Part shown: positions 1,214 through 6,055 of the stretch, piece after piece
How positions within the stretch are numbered: position 1 is the first letter of the stretch
Layout: every line of letters starts with the position of its first letter
The notes under the pieces: model-generated
Told to the model about the DNA's origin: nothing
Databases searched by the model: none
The model's input: only the letters and a program-made list of their open reading frames with translations
Translations under genes and position numbers: made by a program
NCBI GenBank assembly: GCA_016209155.1
Contig: JACQWU010000326.1
Coordinates: 1-6,055, forward strand
Reading direction: 5' to 3'
DNA: 6,055 bases
DNA from: Candidatus Desantisiibacteriota bacterium
Lineage (GTDB): Bacteria > JACRDZ01

Positions 1214-1228
1214 ATGAAAATTTTATTG

Positions 1229-1257
1229 TTGGATTATTATTTAAAAATAGTTATAAT
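1229..1257 (+). promoter_or_regulatory. Candidate promoter of the large activase gene
   Basis: TTGGAT (1229-1234), a 17-base spacer and a perfect TATAAT (1252-1257) form a plausible housekeeping promoter. Transcription would begin near 1264, about 40 bases before the ATG at 1304. This would place an upstream ATG at 1214 outside the transcript and so supports the downstream start. The -35 box is only a partial match and the region is very AT-rich. Confidence 0.45.
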
Positions 1258-1286
1258 AATATACAAACTACTAAAAAACATCAGCG

Positions 1287-1292
1287 AAGGAG
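1287..1292 (+). promoter_or_regulatory. Shine-Dalgarno site that decides the activase start
   Basis: AAGGAG ends 11 bases before the ATG at 1304. The spacing is slightly long, but it is the only good ribosome site near the start. The in-frame ATG at 1214 has no comparable site. Confidence 0.65.
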
Positions 1293-1303
1293 TTTATATT
1301 GTC

Positions 1304-4300
1304 ATGAAACACATAATAGGAATAGATGCCGGTTCTGTGAGTGTTAAGGCGGCTATTATAAATGAAAAAAACGACATACTATTCACCGATTACATAAGAC
1401 ACAAAGGTCAACCGCTTTTAACAATTTATGAAATTTTAAAAAATATTAATGGGAAGTATGACAATCCCAACATTATATTTACCGGTTCTATGGGTAAACT
1501 TATCGCAAAAGAACTCGGAATTGAATATATTAATGAACTTGCCGCATGTTCCACCTCAACAATGAAATTTTATCCCAATGTAAAGACCATTATTGAAATG
1601 GGCGGGGAAGATTCAAAACTCTTAATTCTTGAAAATAATGCCATAAAAGATTTTTCATTAAATTCCATTTGCGCGGCAGGAACAGGTTCTTTTTTAGATC
1701 AGCAGGCAGAAAGACTTCAAATGTCTATTGAAGAATTCGGAGAAACAGCATTGCGTTCTTTAAGCCCCGCGAAAATTGCAGGCCGCTGCAGCGTGTTTGC
1801 CAAATCCGACATGATTCATCTTCAGCAAATCGCAACACCTGCGGAAGCAATTGTCGCGGGTTTATGTTTTGCGGTTGCGAAAAATTTTAAGGGTTCAATA
1901 GTAAGGGGCAGGCAAATTTTAAGCGACATCTCCTTTCAAGGCGGAGTTGCTTTAAATAAAGGAATGATAAGGGCTTTTAAAAATATTTTTAATATTGATA
2001 ATTTGATTATTCCTGAATATACGGCAATAATGGGCGCAATCGGAACAGCTCTTAAAGCATCAGAAAATAAAAGCGCAGTCCCTCTTAATCTTAAAAAAAT
2101 TGAAAATATGCTTTCACTTCATACATATTCAGATTCATTTCATCCTCCTCTTATTAAAGAGGGAGATGAGTTTAAAAAACGCCATATAAAAAAATATGAA
2201 AGCATAACTTTAAATGATTATCTTCAATCCAAAAAAGAAAATACTTCTATCTCCATCGTAAAAAACATCCCGGACAAAAAACTCGACGCTTATATGGGAA
2301 TAGACATAGGTTCAATAAGCACTAATCTTGCTTTAATAGATGATACAGGCGCTTTAATTTCAAAAAGATATATTATGACTGCCGGAAATCCAATCAAAGC
2401 GGTTATGAACGGACTCCTGGATTTAGGAATAGAACTTGGAGATAGAATCAATATACGCGGTGTGGGGACAACCGGTTCAGCCAGATATATGATTGCTGAT
2501 TTTGTCGGCGCGGATATTGTAAAAAATGAAATTACAGCTCAGGCTACCGCCGCCTGCTTTATTGATCCGCTTGTTGATACAATTTTCGAAATCGGCGGGC
2601 AGGATTCAAAATATATCTCCTTAAAAAACGGAATTATTATAAATTTTGAAATGAATAAAGCATGTGCCGCGGGGACAGGGTCTTTCCTTGAAGAGCAGGC
2701 TGAAAAATTGAATATATCTATAAAAAATGAATTTGCCGAATATGCTTTTTCATCAAAAAATCCATGCAAACTGGGAGAAAGATGTACTGTTTTTATGGAA
2801 AATTCTCTTGTTGCAAAACTTCAGCGCGGAGCGCAAAAAAATGAACTTCTTGCAGGACTTGCATATTCAATAGTGGAAAACTATATTAATCGCGTTGTTG
2901 CCAGCAGGGAAATCGGAGAACGAAGCTTTTTCCAGGGCGGGACCGCTTTTAATAAAGCAGTTGTAGCGGCCTTTGAAAAATTTCTCGGAAAAACAATAAC
3001 TGTTCCTCCAAATCATGATGTGACAGGCGCGATTGGAATGGGTATTATCGTCCGCGATCACATAAAACAAAAAACTATTGATAAATCCCTATTTAAGGGA
3101 TTCGATCTTGCTAAAAGAACCTATGAGCAAAATTCATTTGAATGTAAAGGCTGTGAAAATATATGTGAGATTAACAGAATTAAAATTGAAGGTAAGGATG
3201 AAAACACACTTTATTTTGGAGGAAGATGTGAAAAATATGATATAAGAAAAAAAATTAATAGTTTAATCCCTGACCTATTTGAGTATAGAAATAAAGAACT
3301 CTGGAAATCACATATAGAATGGTCTGAAAAAACAAATAAATTAAATAATGCTTCACCAAATGGAAAAATCGGAATTCCTTATATTTTTTTCTTTCATGAT
3401 TATCTTCCTTTCTGGAGTACACTTTTATGGGAACTTGGATTCGAGGTAATCGTTTCGCCAAAAACAAACAAAAATATTGTGAATCTCGGTGTGGAACAGG
3501 TACTTGCCGATACATGCTTTCCAGTGAAGGTGGCTCATGGACATGTGAAATATTTGCTTGAAAAAGGAGTGGAAACTCTTTTTATCCCGAGTTTTATTAA
3601 TATGAATTTAGATAATGACCCATTTGATAAAGGTTATGCCTGCCCTCTTGCTCAGAGTATTCCATACCAGTTCCAGGCCGCTTTCAACAAAGTGAAAATT
3701 GTTTCTCCTATTATAAAATTGAAAAACGGGAAAACTTTCCTTTTTAAAGAACTAAAAAAAGCGATGCAGCCTTTTAATATTAATTCCAATAAACTGAAAA
3801 ACGCAATCAAAAAAGCTCAAATAGCTCAGGATAAATTTATTAAAAATATCAAAAATAAAGGCAGTGAAGTCATTTCCGGACTTAATAAAAAAGCTATTGT
3901 TATAATAGGAAGGCCGTATAATTCCTTTGATATGGGGATAAACCTTGAACTGCCTAAAAAACTTGCGTCTCTTGAGATGATTTCAATACCAATGGATTTT
4001 CTTCCGGATGAAAATATTTATGAAACATGGCCCGGCATATACTGGAAATCGGGACAAAATATTATAAAAGCGGCAAAAACCATTAAAAATAATCCATTGC
4101 TTTACCCTATTTTTATAGGGAATTTTTCATGCGGACCTGATTCTTTTATACATAAAATATTTGAAAAAGAACTTGCAGGTAAACCCTATTTACATATTGA
4201 AATCGACGAACACAGCGCCGATGCCGGCGCGATTACAAGATGTGAAGCCTATCTTGACAGTATAGACGCGCAGATTGCAAAAGGTATAACACCTGATAAA

Positions 4301-5533
4301 AAAACATTCAAGCTTAAAAATGTTCAGTTTCTGTCAAGAAAATTTTCTAAAAAACACAGGACGATTTATATCCCGAGAATGTCGGATCATGCATTTGCCT
4401 TAAAAGCCGCATTTGAACTTTATAATGTACCCGCGGAAGTACTTCCTGAAACTGATTCTTATGCCCTTACTCTCGGGAAAAAATATGCTACCGGAAAAGA
4501 GTGCTATCCGTATATTGTCACAACCGGAGATATGCTTAAAAAAGTATTTTCTGAAGGCTTTAAACCTGAAGAATCCGCATTCCTTATGCCATCGGGTTCG
4601 GGTCCGTGCAGATTTGGTCTTTATAATGTTCTGCATAAAATTGTTTTAAATGATCTCGGATTTAAAGATATTCCAATATTTGCTCCAAATCAGGACATTT
4701 CCCTTTATAAAGATCTAAGCCATATAGACGGTAACTTTATGACAAAATTTTACGAAGGTGTTTTAGCAATAGATCTTTTAACAAAATGCCTTCATGAAAC
4801 AAGACCATATGAGAAAGATAAAGGACTTACAGATAATCTCTATAATAAATATTTAGAAAAAATACCCGTTGATTTAAAAAAATCAAATGAAGATCTTATG
4901 CTGCTAATGGCTCAAATGCGAAAAGATTTTGAAAATATTCCCAGAATAAAAAACATAAAAAAACCTTTGATTGGAATAGTGGGAGAAATATTTGTAAGGC
5001 TTAATAAGTTTTCAAATGAAGAACTGATAAGAAAAATAGAATCTCTCGGAGGAGAAGTATGGCTTTCAACTTTAGATGAATGGATAGAATATTTAAATGT
5101 ATTGAATATGAAGGAAAATATGGAAAAAAAAGACTTCCCGAATATTTTCAATATCTATTTAAAAAAGCAGATACAAAAAAGAAAAAAAGAAAAAATAGAA
5201 AAACATTTCAATGGATTTCTTAAAACAATCCATGAGCCCAAAACCTCTCTTCTCCTTAAAAACGCATCAGCATATATGCATGATTCATTCGAGGGGGAAG
5301 CCATATTGAGTGTAGGAAAATCCATTGATTTTATAAAAAACAACGCTTCCGCAATTATTAATGCAATGCCCTTTGGATGCATGCCGAGCACTGTAGCAAC
5401 ATCAATAATGAGAGGGATTTCACAGGAATATGGAATCCCTGCTATCAGCATGCCATATGACGGCACAGACGCTTCAACCACACAACTTCAATTGGAAGCT
5501 TTTATGGAACAGGCAAAAAGATCAGCTAAATAA
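1304..5533 (+). CDS. Large acyl-CoA dehydratase activase-type protein: two BcrAD/BadFG ATPase domains, DUF2229 and HgdB-like iron-sulfur region
   Basis: The product has 1409 residues, normal for this fused family. Residues 4-251 and 329-583 are two ASKHA ATPase domains. Each has a phosphate-1 loop (GIDAGS at 6-11; GIDIGS at 332-337), a phosphate-2 loop (GGED at 100-103; GGQD at 431-434), CAAGTGSFL and FQGG. Cysteine pairs C123/C162 and C454/C494 are spaced like the cysteines that bind the dimer-bridging [4Fe-4S] cluster of HgdC. A linker carries C614, C617, C621 and C642. DUF2229 starts near 687 (KIGIPYIFFF). The HgdB-like region spans about 1019-1409. Cysteines at 738, 780, 943, 1067, 1102 and 1359 (DTCFPVK, ACP, CGPD, ECYPY, GPCR, PFGCMP) are family-conserved candidate cluster ligands. 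By homology it is a cytoplasmic, oxygen-sensitive ATP-driven low-potential electron-transfer protein. The substrate is unknown. An in-frame ATG at 1214 would add 30 residues unlike the family; 1304 begins directly with MKHIIGIDAGS. No ferredoxin or dehydratase partner gene lies in the window. Confidence 0.92.
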   Translation: MKHIIGIDAGSVSVKAAIINEKNDILFTDYIRHKGQPLLTIYEILKNINGKYDNPNIIFTGSMGKLIAKELGIEYINELAACSTSTMKFYPNVKTIIEMGGEDSKLLILENNAIKDFSLNSICAAGTGSFLDQQAERLQMSIEEFGETALRSLSPAKIAGRCSVFAKSDMIHLQQIATPAEAIVAGLCFAVAKNFKGSIVRGRQILSDISFQGGVALNKGMIRAFKNIFNIDNLIIPEYTAIMGAIGTALKASENKSAVPLNLKKIENMLSLHTYSDSFHPPLIKEGDEFKKRHIKKYESITLNDYLQSKKENTSISIVKNIPDKKLDAYMGIDIGSISTNLALIDDTGALISKRYIMTAGNPIKAVMNGLLDLGIELGDRINIRGVGTTGSARYMIADFVGADIVKNEITAQATAACFIDPLVDTIFEIGGQDSKYISLKNGIIINFEMNKACAAGTGSFLEEQAEKLNISIKNEFAEYAFSSKNPCKLGERCTVFMENSLVAKLQRGAQKNELLAGLAYSIVENYINRVVASREIGERSFFQGGTAFNKAVVAAFEKFLGKTITVPPNHDVTGAIGMGIIVRDHIKQKTIDKSLFKGFDLAKRTYEQNSFECKGCENICEINRIKIEGKDENTLYFGGRCEKYDIRKKINSLIPDLFEYRNKELWKSHIEWSEKTNKLNNASPNGKIGIPYIFFFHDYLPFWSTLLWELGFEVIVSPKTNKNIVNLGVEQVLADTCFPVKVAHGHVKYLLEKGVETLFIPSFINMNLDNDPFDKGYACPLAQSIPYQFQAAFNKVKIVSPIIKLKNGKTFLFKELKKAMQPFNINSNKLKNAIKKAQIAQDKFIKNIKNKGSEVISGLNKKAIVIIGRPYNSFDMGINLELPKKLASLEMISIPMDFLPDENIYETWPGIYWKSGQNIIKAAKTIKNNPLLYPIFIGNFSCGPDSFIHKIFEKELAGKPYLHIEIDEHSADAGAITRCEAYLDSIDAQIAKGITPDKKTFKLKNVQFLSRKFSKKHRTIYIPRMSDHAFALKAAFELYNVPAEVLPETDSYALTLGKKYATGKECYPYIVTTGDMLKKVFSEGFKPEESAFLMPSGSGPCRFGLYNVLHKIVLNDLGFKDIPIFAPNQDISLYKDLSHIDGNFMTKFYEGVLAIDLLTKCLHETRPYEKDKGLTDNLYNKYLEKIPVDLKKSNEDLMLLMAQMRKDFENIPRIKNIKKPLIGIVGEIFVRLNKFSNEELIRKIESLGGEVWLSTLDEWIEYLNVLNMKENMEKKDFPNIFNIYLKKQIQKRKKEKIEKHFNGFLKTIHEPKTSLLLKNASAYMHDSFEGEAILSVGKSIDFIKNNASAIINAMPFGCMPSTVATSIMRGISQEYGIPAISMPYDGTDASTTQLQLEAFMEQAKRSAK
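2141..2168. repeat. Palindrome embedded in frame in the linker between the two ATPase domains
   Basis: Twelve-base arms (2141-2152 and 2157-2168) surround the loop ATTA. Ten positions pair by Watson-Crick, one is a G-T wobble and one is a mismatch. The segment encodes HPPLIKEGDE, about residues 280-289, in the poorly conserved linker between the ATPase domains. Translated stretches of the type PPLIKEG or PPLLKGG are often the signature of REP-like palindromes that have entered reading frames. That interpretation is inference. Confidence 0.55.
3084..3102. repeat. Small palindrome at the linker after the second ATPase domain
   Basis: AATCCCT (3084-3090) and AGGGATT (3096-3102) are perfect inverse complements around ATTTA. 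The segment encodes KSLFKGF, about residues 594-600, between the end of the second ATPase domain and the four-cysteine linker. It is short enough to arise by chance in AT-rich DNA. Its position at a domain boundary and its SLFKG translation resemble the first embedded palindrome. Confidence 0.4.
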
Positions 5534-5555: not shown

Positions 5556-6055
5556 TCACAAACCTAATCTATCACTTATTTCTTTCATTCCGGAAAGCGA
5601 TATTTCAACAAATTGTTCGAATGTAAGCCCCAATGCTTCACAGGATTTTATCTGATCGCGATTGGCTCCTGCCGCAAATCTTTTTTCCCCAAATCTATTT
5701 ATAACAAATGGGACATCAATGGAAGATAATTTTTTGTCAGGATGAATCAAAGCGCATGCCACAATAAGCCCTGTTACAGGGTCAACAGCATAAAGCGCCC
5801 TATCCATCATGGACTTTACATTCAAAACATAATCATAAAATCTTTGCGCCCAATCAATATATGTTTTTTCAGTACTATAAGAATAATGCTTCAAACGAAT
5901 AGCTTCACGCATTTTCTTTAGTATAATAGTAGCGGACGAATTACATTCGCCTTCTTTCAATTCAATTAAATTAGAATTTAAATCAGACGAATCATTTTTC
6001 AAAAAATTATTCAAATATAATTTAACAGCTTCTTCAGCCTGATTTATTTTCCAAC
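5556..6055 (-). pseudogene. Chimeric frame: N-terminal part of an integron-type tyrosine recombinase fused to the C-terminal half of an HD-domain phosphohydrolase (5' partial)
   Basis: The frame is open to the window edge and reads WKINQAEEAVKLYLNNFL at its upstream end. This resembles the N-terminal extension of integron-like integrases. LKKMREAIRLKHYSYSTEKT followed by YIDWAQRFYDYV is the start of their SAM-like core-binding domain. Near 5811-5820 (NVK/SMMDRALYAVD) the sequence switches to MDRALYAVDPVTGLIVACAL, then the SCEALGLTFEQFVE and EISDRLGL stretches. This is the C-terminal part of small HD-domain hydrolases, which are usually about 185 residues long. The recombinase half lacks the catalytic domain (R..H-x-x-R..Y) and the HD half lacks the metal-binding H..HD..D motifs, so neither activity is expected. 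The downstream TTG at 6014 is a possible internal start, but homology continues upstream, so I extend the feature to the edge. The fusion is in frame with no internal stop, so it may be recent or may make a stable product. Confidence 0.75.

Follow-up and report, generated by a model that had tools for sequence, protein, structure and literature searches.

Integrase pseudogenes that adjoin a near-identical functional copy in one genome have been described (PMC2426708). The locus considered here resembles these pseudo-intI genes, which stem from intragenomic duplication, in that a broken integrase copy shares its genome with an intact one that is nearly identical. The two differ in the nature of the break: a pseudo-intI has a stop or a frameshift, whereas here the break continues in frame into an unrelated gene. 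That second gene belongs with the HD/HDIG-domain proteins (PF01966, TIGR00277) of about 181 residues, which the fusion resembles over its last ~87 residues, through to the LGL terminus. Their N-terminal half, where the H and HD metal-binding motifs are found, has been replaced in the fusion.

The window, i.e., the whole stretch of DNA that was analyzed, is the complete 6,055-base contig C286 of a draft genome of a Candidatus Desantisiibacteriota bacterium (3.08 Mb in 352 contigs, 79% complete). The fusion frame occupies positions 5556-6053 on the minus strand and contains 165 codons, with no stop up to the contig end. It is without a start because C286 ends there, and not because the window was cut; the first-pass annotation had suggested looking beyond position 6055, which is the last base of the contig. 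The same annotation described one uninterrupted frame joining two unrelated families, each lacking its catalytic part, and both statements are borne out. When the two halves are compared separately, the N-terminal side is that of an integron-type integrase (PF13495, and weakly TIGR02249), and the C-terminal side is that of HD-domain proteins. The tyrosine recombinase catalytic domain (PF00589) is missing from the fusion frame, and neither PF01966 nor HDIG is matched in the frame or in its HD half. A search of solved structures gave no meaningful match, and an Rfam scan of the window gave none at all.

The integrase half is closely matched by an intact gene on another contig of the draft, C206. 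This gene (C206:3227-4516) encodes a 429-residue integrase, which scores 421 bits against TIGR02249 (cut-off 265) and contains the PF00589 Phage_integrase domain. The two copies are identical at 238 of 242 bases (98%; window 5814-6055 vs. C206:3420-3661), with differences at 5936, 5834, 5823 and 5818, and the similarity disappears below 5814. In the fusion frame, TIGR02249 reaches only 20.5 bits, while PF13495 (Phage_int_SAM_4) matches residues 44-76 (1.6e-6) at profile positions 1-33 of 85, so that no more than the initial third of the core-binding domain is retained. The fusion reads NVK where C206 reads NEK, and NVK is also found in the integrase of another genome of the phylum (L018). Together with the four base differences, this suggests a real variant copy instead of a chimera of C206, and hints that the integrase half may derive from such a copy.

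For the HD half, residues 79-165 of the fusion are up to 74% identical to HD-domain proteins of many lineages. The full-length relatives have about 181 residues, and the fusion corresponds to the last ~85-87 of these, from residue ~98 onward. In the relatives, PF01966 is matched at residues 21-98 and TIGR00277 at residues 17-91, which is precisely the portion missing from the fusion, and the H and HD motifs come before the position that corresponds to the junction. Among 78 homologous HD loci (a count that includes a few places fetched twice), the HD motif lies upstream and in frame in 77, the remaining locus being cut by the end of its own contig, and integrase sequence is present in none. 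No intact HD copy occurs in the draft. The N-terminal half of the HD protein has only a distant match elsewhere in the draft, in a 525-residue frame that is perhaps RNase Y; because the draft is incomplete, the failure to find this half carries little weight.

The first-pass annotation placed the junction at about 5811-5820. The join does lie there, but it is better described as an interval (Table 1). Positions 5835 and above belong to the integrase side, beginning with a 101-base stretch (to 5935) that has no differences from C206, and positions 5813 and below belong to the HD side.

Table 1. Coordinates of the features on the 6,055-base contig.
Feature	Positions	Strand	Description
5' part of integron-type integrase gene	5814-6055	minus	Codons 65/66 to ~146 of 429; continues past the contig end
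Exact contig-end overlap with C206	5937-6055		119 bases; from terminal overlap scan of 142 contigs
Junction interval	5814-5834	minus	Integrase-like at 18 of 21 bases; differs from C206 at 5818, 5823 and 5834; crossover point uncertain (base-by-base alignment)
3' part of HD-domain protein gene	5556-5813	minus	Final ~85 codons with the stop; metal motifs (H and HD) lost
1439-residue protein	1214-5533		Two acyl-CoA dehydratase activase (BcrAD_BadFG) units and a DUF2229 domain

The end of the contig has a likely explanation. In the terminal overlap scan, for which five of the 142 contigs were represented by their first 20 kb only, the other overlaps include lengths of 39, 99 and 141 bases, and lengths of 34, 72 and 134 also occur. 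The values 119, 39, 99 and 141 all belong to the default word-size list of MEGAHIT. (Nine short contigs gave 600-base self-similar matches that are uninformative, probably representing masked runs of N.) C286 probably stops at the point where its path and that of the intact integrase gene become one in the assembly graph. The overlap accounts for the contig end, and does not settle whether the junction, which lies 242 bases inside, is real.

We think it fairly probable that the frame is an in-frame chimeric pseudogene, in which a recently truncated duplicate or variant integrase copy was joined to an HD gene by illegitimate recombination. On this reading, the same genome or a co-sampled strain would have carried an additional integrase gene of the integron type, slightly diverged from the first. 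This copy would have been broken recently near codon 146, and its 5' part attached to an HD-domain gene from codon ~98 onward, via illegitimate recombination or deletion at the scale of microhomology; the product would be in frame by chance. The deletion or recombination scar proposed in the first-pass annotation is thus retained as the best reading of the junction. At 98% identity between the integrase part and the intact copy, the join should be recent, and after so recent an event the absence of stop codons is no guide to selection. When two coding sequences are joined at random, the frame is kept with a chance of about one in three. An open frame thus argues only against old debris, for which the first-pass annotation had called it unexpected, and not against a recent join.

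The main rival to this chimeric pseudogene is an assembly or library chimera, in which a contig that ended in an HD gene was wrongly extended into a branch of the integrase gene. Metagenome assemblies are known to contain local errors and, rarely, chimeras (PMC7111523), and the setting is a suspect one, with the junction only a short distance from the contig end, inside a repeated gene of an incomplete draft, and with the contig end itself formed by an exact overlap that is probably a graph branch. Furthermore, the differences from C206 are bunched at the junction, with three of the four falling within 21 bases of it. A false join would require a shared word, but at the junction the base-by-base alignment shows the two families to have no more than a few bases in common, which favors a real rearrangement. 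The fourth difference, at 5936, is distant from the junction, and the NVK variant recurs in a relative; both are awkward for a chimera made with C206. On balance we find an artefact rather doubtful, although the clustering of differences and the nearness of the contig end keep it a possibility of real weight.

Two biological alternatives appear far less plausible. In one, an integron-type integrase would have acted off target, recombining a site within its own gene with another in the HD gene; the first-pass annotation had raised the action of such integrases at sites beside their genes. The genome does contain an intact integron-type integrase, and off-target integron activity has been reported (PMC10127599). 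However, a core-pattern scan of the window, up to position 6055, found no attC-like pairs, the single pair in C206 (at the same place on both strands, inside another gene) is at chance level, and the single-stranded DNA fold of the junction is no better than those of shuffled sequences (z 0.73). Site-specific recombination of this kind is not supported, and we consider it very improbable. We give equally little credence to a functional new small protein, also suggested earlier as the reuse of a DNA-binding domain, in which an integrase N-terminal segment and an HD-protein C-terminal domain would be kept because the combination is useful. The frame is open and the HD part retains the columns conserved among its relatives, but with so recent an origin there has been no time for decay, and such intactness is uninformative. 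Both domains are incomplete, about 33 of 85 positions being left of the DNA-binding one, and no relative spans the junction. The same junction, for which related genomes had been proposed as a check, was found in none of 290 genomes except its own, in none of three other genomes of the phylum, and in none of the viral contigs, plasmids or phages searched. The integrase side has lost its catalytic domain entirely and its core-binding domain for the most part, and the HD side has lost the H and HD metal-binding motifs; the product of the chimeric pseudogene is therefore probably without function, judging from its sequence. With no complete domain in either half and no such fusion elsewhere in what was searched, we regard it as a non-functional chimera, and an ordinary one if real.

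The remainder of C286 and the surroundings of the intact integrase contain several other features. The C-terminal stretch of the 1439-residue protein resembles component D of 2-hydroxyglutaryl-CoA dehydratase; when 51 HD loci were searched by tblastn for this large activase gene, none gave a match, so that a conserved linkage of the two genes is not seen there. By eye, a minus-strand frame at 120-311 resembles ribosomal protein L28 (rpmB), a small frame at 748-948 could be what is left of an endonuclease-like (DUF559-type) gene, and a near-identical direct repeat of ~55 bases (ttcccctcttgaggggtggcagccaaaggctgacggggtggagctttcaactcaac) at 600-655 and 900-955 is perhaps of the small dispersed kind. 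The region that precedes the intact integrase (L085:1981-3161) contains a ParE-type toxin gene and small genes that by eye resemble HicB/HicA, i.e., toxin-antitoxin modules. In addition, the start of C206 (L085:1-150) and the end of contig C301 (3' end of L220) have 134 identical bases in common, which resemble the terminal part of a group II intron.

In all likelihood the odd frame is a recent, unremarkable pseudogene or else a join made during assembly, and not a new kind of protein. Apparent fusions at the ends of draft contigs that adjoin repeated genes need read support before new proteins are claimed from them. If the join is real, it would represent another integrase copy decaying by recombination with a host gene, in this case in an uncultured lineage.
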